The translations under genes were made by a program, and so were the position numbers. A stretch of DNA of 64,000 bases, from the NCBI RefSeq assembly GCF_013426205.1, contig NC_089424.1:4030001-4094000 (forward strand), in the 5' to 3' direction. The DNA comes from Metarhizium brunneum. Its lineage: Eukaryota > Ascomycota > Sordariomycetes > Hypocreales > Clavicipitaceae. Every line of letters starts with the position of its first letter. The stretch's first letter is position 1. The notes beneath the pieces were generated by a model, which worked only from the letters and a program-made list of their open reading frames with translations, ran no database searches and had not been told where the DNA came from. Positions 18,146 to 31,440 of the stretch are shown piece after piece.

Positions 18146-21100
18146 TCAACCCGAGCCACTCAACACGGCCGCAATGGCATCCAGCTCCTTCTGCCAGGAA
18201 TCCGAATCCACCGTAATACGAACAAACTTGTCCTTATTTGGCCCCTCGGCATCAACCAGGACCGAGTGGCCAAGCGTCATGGTCCCAGTATACAACTTCT
18301 TCTTGAGCCCCTCGAGCAGCCCCGGCCCTGCGCTCCAAGACTCGTGAGGATCCTCCCACACCTCCACTTTGAACTTTTTCCTCTCGCCAAAGAAAAAGTT
18401 CTTGGGGAGGAGCTTGTTCTGCACCGGCATGGGCTGCTTCGACGCCTCGGGAATGTCCGACAGACCCAGGATCAAGCCCTTGCCCAAGAGGTCATTGACC
18501 GCTTTGGGGAGGGGCTCAGAAAAGGAGACGTCGCTGGCCGAGAGGTCGATATTGGGCGCCCGAACGAGCACATGGCTAATATGCTTCTGCTTCTCCGTGC
18601 CGTACAGGTAGAATGGCATAAAGTGCGCAGGGTACTCCCCGTCTTGGTTGGCAGAATTCAGCGGCCGACTCTTGATGACCTTTTTAAAGGTCACCACGCC
18701 CGTCTGAGCGTCAGATCTGTCCCCTGTTAGAGTTTGTTCTGTGACGTGATGCAGGAATAGGGGCTGCACATACTCGTAGCCCTTTCTGTGTATTTCCACA
18801 TCGAGATGCGGAGGCTGTCCTCGCTTGACTTGCATAGCGACGTGCTCCTTGATGTCTAGTTTGTGACAGGACCTCAGAATAACTACATCGGAGGGGTCAT
18901 TCTCCATCAGGGAGTTGTAAAACGCGGCCAGTTGATCGTCCAGCGCCGCCGAGAGAATAAGCTGCTGTCGTCGCGTTGCGCTATGGAACGATGTCTGGTA
19001 GACGAGGAATACGTCGGTGCCTGGCGGGAGAGTACGAGGCCCTTGCACGAGGAATTGTACCCGGTGGCTGGGGGTGTTTCTCTCTCGGCACACCTTGACT
19101 TCCTCCTTGACCACCTTTTCGAACTTGTGCATGAGTTTCTCGACAAAGTCCATCTCGGTTGGGAACGGGTTCATGACTACATTGCGCAGCACAAAGAGAC
19201 CCTGGTTGCATTTCTGAACGCCAATTCTCTCCATGAAGGTCTGGGCGCATTTGCCGTAGTCGTCTGGCCCAAACTTGGTCGAGGTTAAAAACATGGGGAT
19301 TTTGGTCGGATCCGTATTGGCCGAGGTGACGGACAACCTGTCCGTGACTCTCTTCATGAGGTAGTTTGCCTCGTCTAGGTCATTGTTGAGGCTCTTATCT
19401 TTATTTCGCCAGTTGATGGCAAATGCATTAATGTTGAGATCCGACCCTAGCATCCGGAGCATGTTGACAGCCTCCGGGGACTTGATGATTTGCTGGTTGG
19501 ACTTTCCTATGATGTTTGTGCGGATCCATTGTTTCTGCTTGTTCACCGCGTCGGAATCAAACCTTTTGGCGCCGTTTTCTTCAGCAGGCAGCATGTTGAA
19601 GGGGACGCAGGTGAAGAATTCGTTATCTATTGTGGCGTAATAGGCAGACAGCTGAGAGAAATTAGCTTCGCGTGGGATATCTCAAGGAGAGCACGGTACG
19701 TTACCCTGCCGCTGGTAAAAGCCGCTTCACCTAGTAGCATTCCGTAGCCACTAGGATTCAGGCCGATGGTATGGTTCGAGAACCACGCCGACATTGCTGC
19801 CGCACCCGGCTTGCTGAAGAAGAGAATGAAATCAGTAATGCCTACCTTGGTGGTCGCCGCTATTCAGATACTACTCACCTTCCTTCAACGCCGTATATGC
19901 CAATGTTGTCAGACGATCCCTGCGAAAGGTAGGGGACGGACCATGTCACCAAGTGTCGCAGTCTTCCATCTCGGTACACCAAACTTCCTGCAGGATACGG
20001 AATGTAACCGGCTTTATGGGGATCCACGGTAATCGAGTCTGCATGCTGCAAAGCCAAGAGATCCTCTTCCGATGTCTTCTTCAAACAAAGAGCCGGCACA
20101 AGTCTTTTGACATCAGAGGCTCCTTCTGCTCTAAAAGAAACATCGTCTTCCCCAGATGCTGTCTCAATATGCTTGGTTTCGACTGGCCCGTCTTTGGTTC
20201 GACGCAGCATGGTGGCAAAGTAGCCGCCCCAAGCTGCATCGGCGTGAATGAGAAAAGACAGGCCGTGTTTGTCCTGCAACTCTTTCCGCAGCTCCACGAT
20301 CTTGGATAGTCTGTCAACAGCCCCTTCTTCGGTTGAGCCAATTACGGCCACGACTGCGTATACAGGTGTCTGGCTCTTGGCGCAATCCAGCAGTTTCTCC
20401 TCCAGCACCTCGAGGTCAACGCGGGCATCGTTGTCGACAGGAATATTAATAATGGCTCCCGAACCCAAACCAGAAATTGCTGACGGGGTCAATTAGCTCA
20501 TCATCTTGGAGTCGGCTGTCTACACAGTATGGGGGTTGGCATACCTGCTGCTTTTGGCCACGAGTAGTGGTGTGTCGTTGAGATGAGATACTTGGCTTGC
20601 TTTTCCATCTTGAAGTACTTCTCAAGCGGTTCTCTGCCAACGGTTTGGATATTATATGGCTTGTGCGCATCCTCTATAAACTTGCTCGAGATGTCAAACT
20701 CGTCGCTGAGCTTGTGGGGAAGATCCAGAACAGTTTCGGGACGGAGGTTGAGCAGTTCCCAAGTGCTCATCTCAACGAGGAGCTTTTCTTCAGCACCAGG
20801 CATACAGGGCTTGACCTTGAATCTGTCGGCGACAAACTTTAGGTCCCCCTCTTTCATTGCCTGCACAAGAGCTAGCGGGTAGAATTTAAGATTTCGCGCT
20901 GTGTGCCGCACGTTAGCATTGCTCCATCTTGAAAGGCGGAAAAGGAAGCAAGCGAAAATTCGACGTTTACATACCAACCCACATGGATTCCAAATTCGCA
21001 ACACTGCCACCAGAGGTGATATGACCCCAGCCTACGGGGATGTCGGCGGAGGGGGATTTTGGAATCTCCGTGTTGTAGCCAAATAGAGTGCAGAGCTGTT

Positions 21101-21572
21101 GTCCAACCTTGAGCTCTACCAAGGTAGTGATGGGACTTGCTTCAAGGGCGACGTTGTTGGGATTATACAGCATGGTCATGAAGTACCCCAACAATGATGG
21201 CATGGTCAAGTCCATACACATGTGAGCCTCGTACCGCGGCGACCAGAACGGCACCGAGTGCTCGCCCAAGAGCTGGGCGGCCTTGCGCACGGCATTTCCC
21301 AGGTTATCTCTGATCTGCTGAAACTCTGGCGAGCGTCTGACTTTGGCAGTGATGAATTTCTGTAAATAGTGGTTAGTGGTGGGAAATAAGCCTCGAGGGA
21401 GGGTTTTGTTTGGGCAAAGTACCTCATCCTCGGGGAAATAATTGAGCCTGGCCTCGAGCAGCTCATCCAAAATGGTGTTTATGTTTGCTCTGAAGTCGGG
21501 CAAATTGGAACCCTTTGGGCCGATAAAATAGGAGAGAACAGCATTCTGTTCCTCCGAACCTTCTTGAGACAT
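18146..21572 (-). CDS. PLP-dependent amino-acid decarboxylase (group II) with long C-terminal extension
   Basis: Six minus-strand exons (21572-21423, 21359-20975, 20898-20545, 20479-19879, 19813-19705, 19651-18146) splice in frame to 1034 residues. The ATG at 21572 is the first in frame. The N-terminal half (roughly residues 90-560) is a fold-type I decarboxylase: WGHITSGGSVANLESMW at the cofactor-binding region, HADAAWGGYFATML with the PLP-pairing Asp, and VDPHKAGYIPYPAGSL with the Schiff-base Lys near residue 450. Bacterial and fungal relatives decarboxylate aromatic or acidic amino acids (Tyr, Trp, Glu, Asp); the substrate cannot be fixed from sequence. The last exon alone encodes about 500 residues, mostly beyond the catalytic fold. 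This extension appears conserved-looking but unassigned. The protein is probably cytosolic, with no signal or membrane segment. An amino-acid transporter lies 1.6 kb away on the same strand. Confidence 0.88.
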
Positions 21573-22775
21573 ATCGGGCACAGAGTAACTTGTCGGACGA
21601 AACGATGCGTTGTTGATATAGGCTCGTTAATGATAGGCACGAACCGCCGTGACACCAAGTAAATGCATCAATCGAAGCGCTTTATATTTATATCGGCACC
21701 GTCCCATGAGTTTCTTTGTCCAACAGTGGCGTCACTGCTTGGGCGCCGTAAATTTCGTCCCAATCCCCGTGCGTCCGACATGATGCATTTTATTGCCAAG
21801 CGGCAAATATGTCATTGGGTATTCCGCGATGGACAACATCGATGATTTGATCAATGCTACGCCTTTGCAGATGCATCATAGTATTGAGGGGAATCTGCAT
21901 ATTGCGGGCGTTCTTCATGCAACCTCACGGGTTCCGCGTTGGAGGGGGAATATGCCACGTTGGACGGATGTAGTAACTTGCATATTAGTGTAGACAAAAG
22001 AACCAAGCTGTACGCCACCATGGACGGGCGTCACGCTTCTCTAGCCGTAGTACTACCCACGGCTGCATGTCGGATCGCCAATACCGCAAGACATATACCT
22101 CCTGACACACGTCGATCGGATCAGTTTGGATGCTCCTGTCAGATCCGACAATATGGATCAATGAATACTGCATTCGTTTGTATGGGGTCTGGTACTTCCA
22201 CCAGACCCTTTCTTTTACGTGGGGGCAGCATTGGACATGCCCACATACTGCCCGCAAGATCTGATGCCCAAATTGGCGACGTCGTCGACGTTTCAAGGCT
22301 GATATCGTTACTAGACAGTGATATGAAGTAGTATTTGAAACTGGCAACCAGAACGTTATATCTTCATGTGTTTACTCATTTTCCAAGTCCTTGTACTCAA
22401 TACCACAATACTTGTATCCAATGAGTACTGGGCTATGCTTGTAACAAAACATCTCAACATGTTCTAGTCGAACTTGGTCTTGGCAGCCAACTGGCTCGGA
22501 ACCATTTACTTCCCATCCTCCAAGTAGGGAAGAGGGGGCAGGGGGTGAATGAAAGTATGTCTCTGGTAAATGCTCCAGGTGATGTGACAAAGATGCCTGA
22601 CTTGCTTCCCGACTCGCAGGTCAAATGTTCGCTTTCAAAAGAATCGTCATCGTCCACTTCCTAGACAAGATTGCATGTCTGAAAGCCTAGAGATGTGTCT
22701 GCTTTTTGAGTCATGTCTATTACTGGCGCAGGCGGTCGGCATGCGACGCGCCCTGTCAATTTATCCGCCAACAGC
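21573..22775. other. intergenic stretch
   Basis: Holds the decarboxylase upstream region. No gene, RNA or repeat could be supported on either strand. Confidence 0.5.
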
Positions 22776-25637: not shown

Positions 25638-27566
25638 ATGAATGACCAAAGCCTTCTTTTGATGAAAGCTCGGCTTGAAGTCGTAGATTTCAAGACAATT
25701 GCGCCTTTTCTTCAAAAATTTGACCGATTCCTTACCCTTCGTACATTCATTAGAGGCTACACCCTGGGCACCGCAGATGAGCAAATTTGGACTGTGCTGC
25801 GACTGAATAAAGTGGCGCTTGGTCTGATTAGGAGAGCGATATTTCCGAACTTGACACGATGGTTTTCTCATATCGAAAGCACCTATCCTGATCTTCGACC
25901 AACCGCTGTTGAACTCGTCAGTGCAACCAACACTGATGCTACCACCAACCAGACAAGGGGCCGCTACAACATCAAGCTACAAGCTACAGAGAACGGCGTA
26001 GTGACTAGATTTCCGCCAGAGCCGTCGTAAGAATCTTTTTATTGGGATAACTGTTTTGGGACATTGGATTTTCTGATCGTGTTTAGCGGGTATCTACACA
26101 TTGGGCATGCCAAGGCCGCCTTTTTAAACGACTACTTTACGCACGATGCCTTTTCCGGGTCCCTAATTCTACGTTTTGATGATACCAACCCCACGAGAGA
26201 GAATCAGGAATTCGAGGACTCTATTCTTCACGACCTAGGTCTACTAGGCATCAAAACACAGCGCGTGACATACACTAGTGATTACTTTGAGGAGCTTTAC
26301 GACTTGTGCTGTCAACTTATTTCTGATGGAAACGCGTATGCCGAGGATACGGATAGCAAAATACAAAAAGACAACCGTCGTGATCGCCTTCCCAGTAAAC
26401 GACGAGATCGTCCCGCGAGCGAGAGCCTCGCCATCTTCAAAGAGATGAGGGAGGGAACAGAGTTTGGCAAAGGACACTGTATCCGAGCACGCATCGCCTT
26501 TGACAGTTCAAACGGTTCAATGCGTGACCCAATCATCTACCGCTTTCCCAGCTGGGACGCCGAGAATGGACCACGGCCACATCACCGAACCGGCTGGGAC
26601 TGGAACATTTATCCCACATATGACTTTGCCTGCCCTCTGGTCGACTCCATCGAGGGCGTGACCCACGCTCCGTTTTTACGTGCTCTCAAGTTACGGCCAG
26701 TATACCTCTGGGACTTTGCGCGAATTAACTTTATCAAGACATTCTTATCTAAGAGAAAGCTGGCAAAAGTAGTTGAATCTGGGAGAGTGGATGGCTGGGA
26801 TGATCCTCGAATGCCTACTATCCGGGGCATTCTCCGCCGCGGTCTTACGGTAGCAGCGCTACGCGAGTTTATGCTAAAGCAGGGCCCGAGCCGAAACGTT
26901 GTTTCCATGGACTGGACCACCCTTTGGGCGATGAACAAGAAGATGGTTGAGCCGACTGCACCGAGACACACTGCTGTGGCATCCGTGGGTTGCGTTTTAG
27001 CCACCGTGGCGGGAGGTCCGGATCATCCCAGGCAAGACAGTCGGCCGAAACACCCTAAGAATCATAGTCTAGGAACCAAAGATGTTACATTTGCGAACCA
27101 AATTTACATCGAGCAGGCAGACGCGGCGGCCTTTCAGCAGGGCGAGGAGATTACACTTATGAGCTGGGGAAATGCGCATGTTCGACAGGTCACGAGATCC
27201 GATGACCAGACTGTGACCGGGTTACACCTTGAGCTCCATCTTGATGGTGACGCTAGCAAAACGGACAAGAAAGTTCACTGGCTAGCTGCTCACGGTGCTG
27301 AAATTTCCAGAGCGGAGCTTTGGGAGTTTGACTATCTGCTAACAAAGGACAGTCTTGTGAAGGGTGATGAGCTAGAGCACTATCTAAACCCCGTCACGTC
27401 CTGGCTTACAGATGTATTGGTGGGTTCTGAGTTTAGTCAGCTCCTTGAAGGGGATATTATTCAGATTGAACGGAAGGGGCATTTTCGCATGGATAAGCCA
27501 ATTGGTCAAGGACCTAGTGGCAAGGCGGTATTGTTCAAGATTCCAACAGGAAATAACAAGGGATAA
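25638..27566 (+). CDS. glutamyl-tRNA synthetase paralogue, N-truncated with active-site deletion
   Basis: Two exons, 25638-26026 and 26087-27566, with a 60-bp intron, give 622 residues. The N-terminus holds the second half of the GST-like domain (FLTLRTFIRGY). The class I catalytic domain follows: GYLHIGHAKAAF (HIGH motif) at about 131-143, WDDPRMPTIRGILRRG, and LSKRK (KMSKS equivalent) at about 350-354. The C-terminal anticodon-binding domain ends at a natural position. It is of the eukaryotic cytosolic GluRS type, which charges tRNA-Glu. Two departures stand out. The first half of the GST-like domain is absent. After GVTHA (about residue 324) the protein jumps directly to the block that normally follows some 15 residues later, so the conserved LRT-x-EY-x-DR segment that contacts substrate is lost in frame. 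Aminoacylation is therefore doubtful. It is a degenerate copy or a repurposed paralogue; a housekeeping gene is expected elsewhere. Confidence 0.78.
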
Positions 27567-28695: not shown

Positions 28696-31440
28696 ATGGC
28701 TGCCCACTCTAACAATCTGCCGCCGGTCCCCGTCCATCGCACGCTGGTGGTTCGGACGGCCGTTCAGTCGACTGCGCAGGAGCGAGAGCACATCTTGAAG
28801 GAAGTCGAGTACAATGTATTCGCATTCCCCGCAGAAATGGTGTATTGCGACTTCCTCTCCGACTCGGGAACCTCTGCTATGACAGATGTTCAGTGGGCTG
28901 CCTTGCTGCGCGGTGACGAATCCTACGGACGCAACGCCGGGTACTATTGTCTGCAGGACGCCTTTCGGGATATTTTCGAGAGGGGACATGATCGTAGATA
29001 TCTGTTTCGTCATGTCATGGCCGGCACCGTCGACAGTCAACTATATTGCAACACATTGCTGCAGCCGAGCCAGGGGGGATTTGTCAATGGAGGACATGTC
29101 CAGCTCGCCCGCCCCAATTTCTACATTGTGCCGCAGGGAGGTTGCGCCGAGGCGATTCTCTTCTCAGAGCTGATGAATTCGTCCTCGTCCAACGATGCCT
29201 CGGTCGCGCCCGTTATTATCAGTAACGGCTTCTTTGATACGACTGCGACCAACGCGGCTGCCGCTGGCTTCGAGCTGGCAACCTTTCTTCAGCCCGGTCT
29301 CCGCGAACCGTTAGATCCTAATGAGGCATCCAGCCATAATCCATTCAAAGGCAATCTGGACCTGCTGGCAACTCGCAACTTTCTAGCCAAAAACCACCAT
29401 CGAACAGCGCTCATACTCATCACCATCACCAACAATTTCGCCACGGCACAGCCCGTGTCCATGGCCAACATACGCGCCGCAGCGTCGCTGGCCAAGGGCT
29501 TCAATATTCCATGTTTTTTCGATGCTTGCCGCTTTGCTGAGAATGCTAGGCTCATACAAGAATTCGAGCCGGGGTATGATGCCTGTTCCATTGCCGAAAT
29601 TGTCAAAGAGATGTTCAGTCTCGTAGACGGTTTTACTATCAGTCTTAAAAAGGACGGCATGTCCAACATGGGCGGTGCCCTTGCTATTCGCGACAATGGC
29701 TGCCTGATGAAGAAGTCTCAAGATATAGGCGTTCGGCTCAAAGAACGGCAAATTCTAGCTTATGGAAACGACTCCTACGGCGGGATGAGAGGCCATGACC
29801 TGATGGCTGCAGCTGCAGGCCTGTACGAGACCACCAAAGAGTCTTATTTGAGGAGCAGCATCGGGCAGGTAAGATCTTTTGCGCAGAAACTCCATTCTGC
29901 CGGAGTACCGATACTGTGGCCGCCAGGAGGACATGCCATATATCTGGACATGAATGCATTCTTTGCCGACTGTCCGCGGTCGCCGGGTGACTTTGCCTCT
30001 GTGGGATTCACCATTGAGCTTCTACGCCAGCATGGAATTCGAGCCGTCGAGGCTGGACCATTTGCTTGGGAATGGGACAAGAAGCAGTCTGAAGAGGAGC
30101 GAGACGCCATTCCTGACCTGGTCCGCTTTGCGGTTCCCCGGAATTCGATGAATGACGGCCATATTGACTACACCGTGGCGGCCATTCACGAGCTATATCA
30201 ACAGCGTCATATTCTTCCCAACGTGAGAATTATTAGGGGCAAGCATCTTCGTATCCGCCACTTCCAGTGCGGATTTGCTCTTGTCCCTGCAAGTAGGAGC
30301 AATGGGAGCCAGTCTGCAACGAATAATACTTTTTTTTCGGCGGCTGAAGCTCAAATCAGAGCACTCGGTCGTTCTCTCTCGTTCAATGACGATTTAGTAG
30401 AAGTTTTAGTCCGAGAAATGCAACTCGCAATGGGCGCCTGGGGAGAAAGTGCTGTCAGCAAATCCACCAACGGGCACATCTCTCATGTGGGAAATGACCA
30501 TGCCCCTATTGAATACTCTATCTCTTTTGATGTTAATACCGGAACGCCCCAGCTTCGATTCTTGATTGAAGCGCAGCCGCCGGAGGACGTGGCCAAAGTG
30601 AAGCTAGCAGATCTTCAATTAGCCGCTTTGGAGTTGAACCGTACTTTGCGCCAGCGGCAGGATGACGCACTTTCATTCACACGGTTCGATATGATAAAAG
30701 ACTTGTTCATTCCGGAAACAAATGATGCGCAAAATGTTTCAGGCTTCGCTGCTTGGCACAGTGCTTGCGTTTCGCCTGGCAGTAAACGCGCGGATTGGAA
30801 AATTTACCTCAATCCGGACGCCCAGGGAGCATCACAACGCGAAAGACTCATCCGAGCATCACTTACCCGTCTGGGATTTGAGCAGGTTTCTGAGCGACTC
30901 AGCCTGGCAATGGGGCCAACAGATCGGTTCTGCTATTTCTCTCTAGATCTCGACAAAGGATGGGACGCTCGCATCAAGATATACATTGAGCATCCGAATG
31001 CTACCGCTCAAAGTGTTGCCAACATGATTCAAAAGGTTTGCTTGCACTTGAAAGCAGACAATCGAGATGAAATTGTTGCCTTCGTACGCGCCATGAGCGG
31101 CAACACATCAGGTCCCTTGCAGCGCAAGTCGGTTGTGACTTGCTTCGCCTTCACGACAGATCGCACAGAACCATCCGCCACTGTTCATTTCCCCGTCTCT
31201 GATTATGCACGCAACGATGCTGAGATACATTGCAGAGTTGTCGAGTACTGTTCAAACAAGGCTCCCATGGTGCTGCCGCATTATGTGCGATCAATCGTAG
31301 CCTTGAGGCAGCGTTCGCTGTCCGATGGGAAAGGTCTGCATAGCTGGGTGTCGTTGAAACAGAGTCCAGGTGGCAGCCTTGGGCTGACTTTCTACCTATC
31401 GGCTGAGTTGTTTGGACCCTTGCCAGATTTGGAGCAGTAG
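28696..31440 (+). CDS. tryptophanase-aromatic prenyltransferase fusion protein
   Basis: One intronless 914-codon frame with an ATG at 28696. Residues about 20-528 form a beta-eliminating lyase. LLRGDESYG, the cofactor block CFFDACRFAENA (Asp276, Arg279), SLKKDGMSNMGG with PLP lysine probably Lys319, YGNDSYGGMRGHDL, and GGHAIYLDMN all match tryptophan indole-lyase. At the position where tyrosine phenol-lyases carry an Arg, it reads VEAGPF, favouring tryptophan. After a Ser/Asn-rich linker (about 532-548), residues about 550-914 form an ABBA-fold aromatic prenyltransferase. It shows PIEYSISF with a candidate indole-binding Glu606, diphosphate-binding pairs in WKIYLNP and IKIYIEHP, and the final SWVSLKQSPGG...TFYLSAELF. 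The probable activity is release of indole from tryptophan (plus pyruvate and ammonia), with prenylation of indole or tryptophan. No signal peptide, so cytosolic. Separate tryptophanase and IptA-type genes are adjacent in some Streptomyces, suggesting bacterial ancestry. The order of the reactions is inferred. Confidence 0.9.
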   Translation: MAAHSNNLPPVPVHRTLVVRTAVQSTAQEREHILKEVEYNVFAFPAEMVYCDFLSDSGTSAMTDVQWAALLRGDESYGRNAGYYCLQDAFRDIFERGHDRRYLFRHVMAGTVDSQLYCNTLLQPSQGGFVNGGHVQLARPNFYIVPQGGCAEAILFSELMNSSSSNDASVAPVIISNGFFDTTATNAAAAGFELATFLQPGLREPLDPNEASSHNPFKGNLDLLATRNFLAKNHHRTALILITITNNFATAQPVSMANIRAAASLAKGFNIPCFFDACRFAENARLIQEFEPGYDACSIAEIVKEMFSLVDGFTISLKKDGMSNMGGALAIRDNGCLMKKSQDIGVRLKERQILAYGNDSYGGMRGHDLMAAAAGLYETTKESYLRSSIGQVRSFAQKLHSAGVPILWPPGGHAIYLDMNAFFADCPRSPGDFASVGFTIELLRQHGIRAVEAGPFAWEWDKKQSEEERDAIPDLVRFAVPRNSMNDGHIDYTVAAIHELYQQRHILPNVRIIRGKHLRIRHFQCGFALVPASRSNGSQSATNNTFFSAAEAQIRALGRSLSFNDDLVEVLVREMQLAMGAWGESAVSKSTNGHISHVGNDHAPIEYSISFDVNTGTPQLRFLIEAQPPEDVAKVKLADLQLAALELNRTLRQRQDDALSFTRFDMIKDLFIPETNDAQNVSGFAAWHSACVSPGSKRADWKIYLNPDAQGASQRERLIRASLTRLGFEQVSERLSLAMGPTDRFCYFSLDLDKGWDARIKIYIEHPNATAQSVANMIQKVCLHLKADNRDEIVAFVRAMSGNTSGPLQRKSVVTCFAFTTDRTEPSATVHFPVSDYARNDAEIHCRVVEYCSNKAPMVLPHYVRSIVALRQRSLSDGKGLHSWVSLKQSPGGSLGLTFYLSAELFGPLPDLEQ

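Follow-up and report, generated by a model that had tools for sequence, protein, structure and literature searches.

We found that one open reading frame of Metarhizium brunneum encodes a tryptophanase joined to an aromatic prenyltransferase, that the same fusion is spread widely among fungi, and that its two halves have separate ancestries. With a probability of roughly 0.6, we propose that the fungal family consists of bifunctional prenylindole-forming enzymes in which prenylation would precede lysis, and that it goes back to one fusion that was later split. In the copy studied here, which lies in a 64,000-nucleotide stretch of DNA (the window), the catalytic residues of the prenyltransferase half are intact and the lyase half has lost several near-invariant residues. 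The features, all on the forward (+) strand, are as follows.

28696..31440, +, tryptophanase-prenyltransferase fusion, a single ORF of 914 aa (frame translation)
28732..30279, +, tryptophanase domain (long-type beta-eliminating lyase), residues 13-528 (NF009709; PDB 8sl7)
29140..29142, +, Gly149 in the QGR motif (Arg in 216 of 217 other sequences, Trp in one)
29647..29649, +, PLP-binding lysine Lys318 in SLKKDG (shared by all 222 other sequences)
29788..29796, +, Arg365 and His367 in the (S/A)GRD motif (365 is Ser or Ala in 197 of 199 others, 367 is Arg in 191 of 197)
29857..29859, +, Ser388 (Arg or Lys in 198 of 198 others)
30280..30333, +, linker, residues ~529-546, lying after the NF009709 match and before the 6zrz match
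30292..30399, +, in-frame 108-nt stretch, residues 533-568, read as coding, which the annotated M. brunneum protein P0002 lacks
30334..31425, +, ABBA/DMATS-type aromatic prenyltransferase domain, residues 547-910 (PF11991; 7w8u; 6zrz)
30511..30513, +, Glu606 in PIEY (Glu in 75 of 78 fused proteins; invariant in A1)
30799..30807, +, Lys702-x-Tyr704 (Lys in 73 and Tyr in 72 of 78 fused proteins)
30970..30984, +, Arg759-x-Lys761-x-Tyr763 (Arg in 62, Lys in 67 and Tyr in 74 of 78 fused proteins)

Reading frame, domains and residues

The frame begins with ATG, ends with TAG and contains no internal stop, and the fusion gene was the sole match in six-frame searches of the genome. A sequence-only reading had described one uninterrupted frame with both domains, and we confirmed this: all 914 codons are open and both Pfam families exceeded their gathering scores, PF01212 at residues 52-493 (E 1.1e-46) and PF11991 at residues 591-853 (E 8e-14; 52.2 bits against a gathering score of 25), the latter placing the C-terminal half in the aromatic prenyltransferase family. 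Every motif quoted from the two halves (SLKKDG, DACRFAENA, PIEYSISF, WKIYLNP and IKIYIEHP) was located in the fusion protein. The description of the lyase as complete does not hold strictly, as Gly149 stands in place of the QGR arginine.

The tryptophanase half matched the NCBIfam tryptophanase NF009709 over residues 13-528 (455.4 bits, cutoff 285) and PDB 8sl7 (E 1e-122). Its scores with the equivalogs TIGR02617 (253.6 bits) and NF053783 (309.7 bits) are under the cutoffs of 825.8 and 750, respectively, indicating that it is a divergent long-type lineage. Lys318, Asp276, Arg279, Asn247, Tyr77 and Arg482 are retained, and we take the first five to be tryptophanase active-site residues. Asp181 (FDTT) is Asp in 220 of 221 other sequences, the exception being a Pantoea tyrosine phenol-lyase with Thr, and position 453 is Ala in the window protein and Arg in the Pantoea enzyme. 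The Asp181 site presumably distinguishes tryptophanase from tyrosine phenol-lyase (TPL), and position 453 presumably corresponds to TPL Arg381; judged by these two residues, the domain would be a tryptophanase rather than a tyrosine phenol-lyase. We also considered the small residue at 453 as a pocket widened for prenyl-tryptophan, and found it unassociated with fusion in independent pairs.

The closest solved prenyltransferase was 7w8u, a 6-dimethylallyltryptophan synthase (E 1.2e-31) that we take to be IptA, and the bacterial enzyme 6zrz also matched the domain (E 3e-26). The DMATS model TIGR03429 gave 92.5 bits at residues 590-902, under its cutoff of 163.85, and the predicted ABBA type rests on homology to the solved enzymes. 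We take Glu606 to be the putative general base on indole, Lys702/Tyr704 to be a diphosphate-binding pair and Arg759/Lys761/Tyr763 to be a diphosphate-binding triad. Each of these six residues is retained in 62-75 of the 78 fused proteins; prenyltransferase residues have thus been lost from some fused relatives, position 759 being without Arg in 16 of the 78 fused proteins, one of these having a gap.

The absence of 36 residues (533-568) from P0002, as though an in-frame intron of 108 nt had been predicted, could suggest an annotation or assembly artefact in which two genes were joined or the two domains were in fact separated by an intron. However, the same residues are present in M. acridum P0003 and part of them (547-568) aligns to the N-terminus of the bacterial 6zrz, and for these reasons we read the stretch as coding. 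The recovery of fused homologues of similar length and the same domain order from many fungal genera excludes an assembly chimera and, together with the 6zrz alignment and the M. acridum protein, rules out a linker intron, making an artefact of either kind exceedingly improbable.

Loss of conserved lyase residues in the window copy

The arginine at position 149, presumably the counterpart of Arg100, a PLP phosphate contact in tyrosine phenol-lyase, is kept in the M. brunneum and M. acridum proteins, compared to Gly in the window protein, from which Ser365 and Arg388 are also gone. The lyase half accumulated 21 changes in the window lineage versus 3 in M. brunneum (p 3e-4). The loss of near-invariant residues and this excess of changes suggest that the tryptophanase half may be impaired in the window strain, with mainly a tryptophan prenyltransferase left.

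It is possible, at somewhat less than even odds, that the lyase of the window strain is dead or nearly so, the protein being only a tryptophan prenyltransferase or the gene drifting to a pseudogene. In keeping with this, the share of window lyase changes on the most conserved 25% of columns (5 of 21) equals the neutral share, compared to 4 of 58 on the M. acridum side, and changes on conserved columns numbered 3 of 20 versus 0 of 15 in the prenyltransferase half and 8 of 41 versus 5 of 120 with both halves pooled (p 0.004). Yet the 914-codon frame is still intact, the PLP lysine, Asp276, Arg279, Arg482 and all checked prenyltransferase residues are kept, the comparison of 5/21 with 4/58 by itself gave p 0.051, and the prenyltransferase half of the window copy did not change faster (20 versus 15 changes, p 0.5).

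Distribution and ancestry of the fusion

Both halves occur together in 78 of 120 among the homologues listed, the window included, so the fusion is not confined to the window genome. The fused homologues belong to many ascomycete genera, to Mycena and to one liverwort record, and Colletotrichum genomes carry the fusion; outside Metarhizium they are mostly 45-54% identical, with the domain order unchanged. The sequence-only reading knew of no characterised fungal enzyme of this kind, and this was borne out within the literature searched, where we found no characterised relative of the fusion. The matches listed for liverwort prenylindoles held no relevant literature (floras and other unrelated work).

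A single tryptophanase clade of fused proteins with the stand-alone proteins outside was rejected (AU p 6e-128); the fused-only clade test on the prenyltransferase was weaker (p 0.02). The tryptophanase tree contains at least 8 changes of fused/stand-alone state on the 38 rows counted, which exclude P0089 and P0108 and among which some stand-alones may be annotation fragments. The fusion was apparently split several times after it had formed.

The window tryptophanase groups with prokaryotic ones, in a "long" lineage near Promethearchaeota. The prenyltransferase shares the PF11991 fold family with two canonical DMATS genes of its own genome (L050, L051), but these lie far away behind a long branch with 100/100 support, and the window domain clusters among bacterial enzymes. 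Bacterial fusions with PF14518 (L008, L012, L015, L016, L018 and P0167) belong to the same prenyltransferase subfamily, but their partner is a C-terminal iron-containing redox enzyme rather than a tryptophanase. Transfer followed by fusion had been suggested earlier; the non-fungal ancestry of both domains upholds that part, but not the fusion of a transferred Streptomyces-type operon. A tree with the fungal and Streptomyces-cluster tryptophanases as one clade was rejected (AU p 3.7e-58), and the gene order on two Streptomyces plasmids (L043, L044), prenyltransferase-tryptophanase, is the reverse of the fungal domain order. Further adjacent gene pairs with both activities were found in a Nostoc MAG (L002), in the same order as the fungal domains, and in Myxococcota (L007, L011, L021). 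Since the fungal tryptophanase is of another lineage, fungi made the pairing independently, and judging from these trees the pairing is convergent between fungi and the bacterial gene pairs.

Separate adjacent Streptomyces genes had been said to make prenylated indole products, in agreement with excerpts of PMC3617294, in which Type A clusters use a prenyltransferase and a tryptophanase to produce 6-dimethylallylindole-3-carbaldehyde and Type B clusters pair the prenyltransferase with a flavin monooxygenase. The fungal fusion resembles Type A, of which L043 and L044 are examples, in its paired activities, in having a homologous prenyltransferase whose catalytic residues agree and in the expected chemistry at the 6-prenylindole level. 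It differs in being one protein, with the tryptophanase first and of a different lineage, compared to two genes with the prenyltransferase first, and the excerpts report no fusion. Excerpts of PMC8537960 describe a horizontally acquired fungal tnaA in Colletotrichum, Fusarium, Podospora and the Metarhizium clade; from the genera named, these are probably the same tryptophanase genes as the window lyase. The main text of that paper makes no mention of a prenyltransferase ('prenyl' and 'dmat' 0 occurrences each).

Proposed reaction and its meaning

In the reaction that we propose, the C-terminal domain would prenylate the benzo ring of L-tryptophan, most likely at C6 or C5, with the dimethylallyl group of DMAPP. 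The N-terminal PLP domain would then release prenylindole from the prenyl-tryptophan by beta-elimination, with pyruvate and ammonia as the other products. With both domains in one chain, their stoichiometry would be fixed and the intermediate may stay close by. The simplest origin would be one fusion of a prokaryotic long-type tryptophanase with a bacterial-type prenyltransferase. This event would be independent of the pairs of neighbouring genes in Streptomyces, Myxococcota and Nostoc, and several splits or reductions would have followed it. We infer both activities, the substrate order, the regiochemistry, the products and any channelling.

Prenylation of L-tryptophan before cleavage is the most likely order because tryptophan is prenylated first in Streptomyces, where IptA and SCO7467 act on tryptophan (excerpts of PMC3617294); the handover of indole between the sites suggested by the sequence-only reading is the less likely one. 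Such an order, in which the tryptophanase would act first and the released indole would be prenylated as free indole, parallels the N-to-C order of the domains and agrees with an N-terminal half that is recognisable as a tryptophanase. We consider it unlikely, given the substrate of IptA and SCO7467, the name of the nearest solved relative and the other partners of bacterial prenyltransferase relatives (the PF14518 fusions and the Type B flavin monooxygenase), since such varied partners fit a tryptophan-level product given to different side-chain enzymes. The lyase might also run synthetically or take a different amino acid as substrate, yielding modified tryptophans and not indoles, and tryptophanase is said to be reversible in excerpts of PMC8537960; but no sequence feature favours this reading, Asp181 is present and Ala453 is not the TPL Arg, making it highly improbable.

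Returning to prenylation followed by lysis, the fusion is a good candidate for the source of fungal prenylindoles. A Colletotrichum sp. yields 6-isoprenylindole-3-carboxylic acid (PMC6023322, PMC8255908), and the excerpts of these two papers name no fungal gene for it; the producing strain is not known as sequenced, so the link between compound and fusion stands at the genus level. Non-exhaustive scans revealed no adjoining oxidase able to finish the indole-3-carboxylate, no biosynthetic cluster was recognised in the 10 ORFs scanned around the gene, none of the 108 P450 matches in the genome, obtained by scoring 92 of 181 candidates, lay inside the window, and the base composition around the gene was not striking.

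More tentatively, and with the balance slightly against the picture as a whole, this one-protein prenylindole synthase, built from a long-type tryptophanase and a bacterial-type (myxobacterial-like) tryptophan prenyltransferase, would be a fungal invention, made independently of the two-gene pathways of as many as three bacterial phyla and convergent with them. It would have spread across fungal classes and into Mycena and a liverwort, would be the source of the Colletotrichum 6-prenylindoles, and would now be reduced by lineage (Fusarium without the prenyltransferase, Penicillium without the tryptophanase, the tryptophanase decaying in the window Metarhizium), so that fungi would end at indole, prenylindole or prenyltryptophan.

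The window-genome copy may be the wrong choice for an assay. Dozens of fungal proteins named only 'tryptophanase' or 'beta-eliminating lyase' bear an overlooked second catalytic domain, and the fusion provides a sequence-level candidate for the fungal 6-prenylindole class, such as 6-isoprenylindole-3-carboxylic acid. The tryptophanase and the tryptophan prenyltransferase were brought together on more than one occasion, in some lineages as adjacent genes and in fungi as a covalently joined protein, and this speaks strongly for two steps that belong together.

The fusion protein and its two domains

The sequence-only reading had proposed a single uninterrupted ATG-started frame with a beta-eliminating lyase and an aromatic prenyltransferase domain, and both the frame and the domains were borne out.

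28696-31440, + strand: fusion ORF, ATG to TAG, uninterrupted, 914 aa

Residues 52-493 matched PF01212 (beta-eliminating lyase, E 1.1e-46) and residues 591-853 matched PF11991 (Trp_DMAT, E 8e-14), both above the Pfam gathering scores. With NCBIfam, the protein scored 455 bits for tryptophanase NF009709 (cutoff 285) and 92.5 bits for TIGR03429 DMATS, below its cutoff. The solved structure nearest to the tryptophanase half was tryptophanase 8sl7 (E 1e-122), and the two have in common an insertion of about 45 residues relative to 1ax4; the prenyltransferase half was nearest to 7w8u (E 1.2e-31), named 6-dimethylallyltryptophan synthase, followed by PriB and other DMATS-type enzymes. In the 37.8 Mb genome, no tryptophanase match was found besides the fusion gene; matches to several canonical DMATS genes are also present. 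Another DMATS-like match (L058, G000:C1:8757762-8758085), a fragment interrupted by three in-frame stops, is perhaps a gene relic. The window also holds the following frames, the second entry being aromatic amino acid enzyme frames about 7 kb from the fusion gene start:

26064-27566: 500-aa frame, TTG start, all three Glx-tRNA synthetase domains
18146-21581, - strand: PLP decarboxylase-like frames, PF00282 and tyrosine decarboxylase C-terminal PF21391

The prenyltransferase half keeps Glu606, Lys702/Tyr704, Arg759/Lys761/Tyr763, Thr829/His831 and Tyr900. Among 78 fused proteins, counting a gap as not kept, these residues were retained in 75 (Glu606), 73 (Lys702), 72 (Tyr704), 62 (Arg759), 67 (Lys761), 74 (Tyr763), 64 (Thr829) and 69 (Tyr900), and at position 831 there were 54 His and 14 Tyr. 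Because key residues are missing in some of the 78, a minority of fused prenyltransferase halves look degenerate. The tryptophanase half keeps the PLP lysine Lys318, Asp276, Arg279, Asn247, Tyr77 and Arg482. It has Asp181 and Ala453 where Pantoea tyrosine phenol-lyase has Thr and Arg; these sites, which we take to separate the two enzymes, point to tryptophanase over tyrosine phenol-lyase.

Distribution and ancestry of the fusion

A whole-length protein search gave at least 1307 homologues among the best 7999 candidates, and the best 120, including the window's own, were aligned. Of these 120, 78 carry over 60% of either half and count as fused, 39 are tryptophanase alone and three are partial, which rules out an artefact of this genome or a gene unique to it. 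Named fused copies within this set included those of Metarhizium brunneum and M. acridum (the nearest proteins, at 88% and 82%), Xylaria, Hypoxylon, Nemania, Rosellinia, Colletotrichum, Podospora, Triangularia, Microdochium, Diaporthe, Corynespora, Lentithecium, Stachybotrys and the basidiomycete Mycena pura. The two-domain fungal enzyme is real and widespread, and apparently uncharacterised. The annotated M. brunneum protein is without 36 residues (533-568), resembling a predicted in-frame intron; we read the stretch as coding because it is present in M. acridum and residues 547-568 align to the N-terminus of bacterial 6zrz.

In the prenyltransferase tree (61 rows, bootstrap not fully settled), the fused domains, stand-alone proteins of Daldinia and Penicillium/Aspergillus and a few others formed one 28-row clade (100/100), with L050 and L051, DMATS genes of the window's own genome, set apart from it by a long branch (100/100). 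Support for the placement of the closest bacterial rows was weak (81/81). The Penicillium/Aspergillus group, represented by five stand-alone proteins (P0149, P0150, P0151, P0159, P0160), nested within the clade (fused-only clade, p 0.02), and these stand-alone enzymes apparently lost a tryptophanase half earlier.

P0149-P0151, P0155, P0156, P0158-P0160: Penicillium and Aspergillus stand-alone prenyltransferases, 413-453 aa

The tryptophanase tree comprised 58 rows (44 of the best 120 homologues, 12 loci and two PDB fragments); some rows are odd in composition, and a long branch to three myxobacterial rows is possibly a false join. Fungal long-type rows, two proteins of the liverwort Riccia sorocarpa and four metagenomic rows formed one 40-row clade (100/100), neighboured by three Promethearchaeota rows with one other row (98/80), then by Fusobacterium with 8sl7. 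The long type also occurs in other prokaryotes, such as a MAG of the Caldilineaceae at 49%. Among the fungal rows, fused and stand-alone ones were intermixed, and a single clade of fused rows was rejected (AU p 6e-128). At least eight changes of state are required, a count that does not distinguish gain from loss and in which some stand-alone tryptophanases may be annotation fragments.

The Riccia proteins lie in chromosome-sized contigs: a fused copy, P0004 (31.9 Mb), and a diverged tryptophanase-only protein, P0075 (52.3 Mb). Both nest among fungi in the tryptophanase tree, as P0004 also does in the prenyltransferase tree; possible origins are fungus-to-plant transfer or contamination joined during scaffolding.

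Bacterial pairs and other fusions

With the prenyltransferase alignment as query, a scan of prokaryotes at one genome per species yielded 17 loci: 15 titled Myxococcota, one titled Deltaproteobacteria, and one in a Nostoc MAG (contig of 10.8 kb). Three of them (L002, L007, L011) have an adjoining tryptophanase gene. PF11991 matched in 9 of 195 genomes from the phylum of Hyalangium. The earlier statement that some Streptomyces have separate adjacent genes for the two activities agrees with two plasmids that carry the gene pair; the Nostoc and Myxococcota pairs, tandem or convergent, stand outside actinomycetes.

L002, Nostoc MAG: tryptophanase then prenyltransferase, the fungal order
L007, Polyangiaceae: reverse of the fungal order
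L011, Hyalangium: convergent
L021/L027, Myxococcota, elsewhere in the genome of L004: convergent
L043, L044, Streptomyces plasmids: prenyltransferase then tryptophanase

Over their main matches, the six paired bacterial tryptophanases shared 30-35% identity with the window's (42% for a short L007 piece), and all fell outside the long-type clade; the four displayed have no long-type insertion. Forcing paired bacterial and fungal tryptophanases together was rejected (AU p 3.7e-58), and on these sequence relationships the pairing in bacteria and fungi is convergent. Transfer followed by fusion, as suggested earlier, stands in outline, though not as a fusion of the Streptomyces gene pair, whose tryptophanase is of another lineage. 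The most economical history has two prokaryote-derived genes fusing once, long ago, with several later losses of either half and transfers between distant hosts.

Five of 17 prenyltransferase ORFs examined (drawn from 16 loci, all but L013, with two ORFs in L008) carry a C-terminally fused PF14518 iron-containing redox domain. These Myxococcota/Deltaproteobacteria proteins belong to the same prenyltransferase subfamily as the fungal fusion and represent another tryptophan-tailoring fusion that may merit study. Together with the adjacent tryptophanases, they show this subfamily repeatedly gaining a partner, neighbouring or fused.

L008:12015-13853, L012:7710-9614, L015:7782-9632, L016:7749-9611, L018:5933-7711: prenyltransferase-PF14518 fusions

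The window's lyase half and the proposed reaction

Of 527 tryptophanase columns, 134 show conservation of 97% or more among 114 other homologues, and the window differs at eight of these. Five of the departures (Gly149, Thr185, Arg365, His367, Ser388) are absent from both M. brunneum and M. acridum; in a larger set, the other sequences have Arg149 (216/217), Ala185 (214/221), Ser/Ala365 (197/199), Arg367 (191/197) and Arg/Lys388 (198/198). The window lineage has 21 substitutions in the tryptophanase half versus 3 for M. brunneum (p 3e-4), and 20 versus 15 in the prenyltransferase half (p 0.5). Five of its 21 lyase changes fall on conserved columns, which make up 25% of the half, as expected without constraint, versus 4 of 58 on the M. 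acridum side (p only 0.051 directly, 0.004 with both halves pooled). This is fair evidence, short of proof, that the lyase half is impaired or relaxed in the window's strain.

According to the available text of PMC3617294, IptA of Streptomyces prenylates L-Trp at C6, a cluster with tryptophanase yields 6-dimethylallylindole-3-carbaldehyde, and 6-prenylindole was suggested as an intermediate. By analogy with this cluster, the fungal protein would prenylate Trp and then cleave the product to prenylindole, pyruvate and ammonia; the order in the sequence-only reading, with indole released first, is the less likely alternative. Enzyme activity, the sequence of steps, regiochemistry and any channelling are inferred. 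6-Isoprenylindole-3-carboxylic acid is described, in the text available, from a Colletotrichum endophyte (originally Lu et al. 2000; PMC6023322, PMC8255908) and also from Streptomyces (PMC12734698). Colletotrichum genomes carry the fusion, a link at genus level.

No description of a tryptophanase-prenyltransferase fusion was found in the papers examined among the matches to searches of open PMC full texts, which leave subscription papers mostly uncovered, and one may exist elsewhere. Transfer of tnaA into a Sordariomycete clade including Colletotrichum, Fusarium, Podospora and Metarhizium has been reported in a paper whose main text, as available, has no mention of a prenyltransferase (PMC8537960), and a survey of DMAT genes in Hypoxylaceae nowhere uses 'tryptophanase' in its available text (PMC8403587). 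The fungal enzyme presents a known pairing in a new form, a fusion with a convergent origin on sequence grounds and a concrete product hypothesis.
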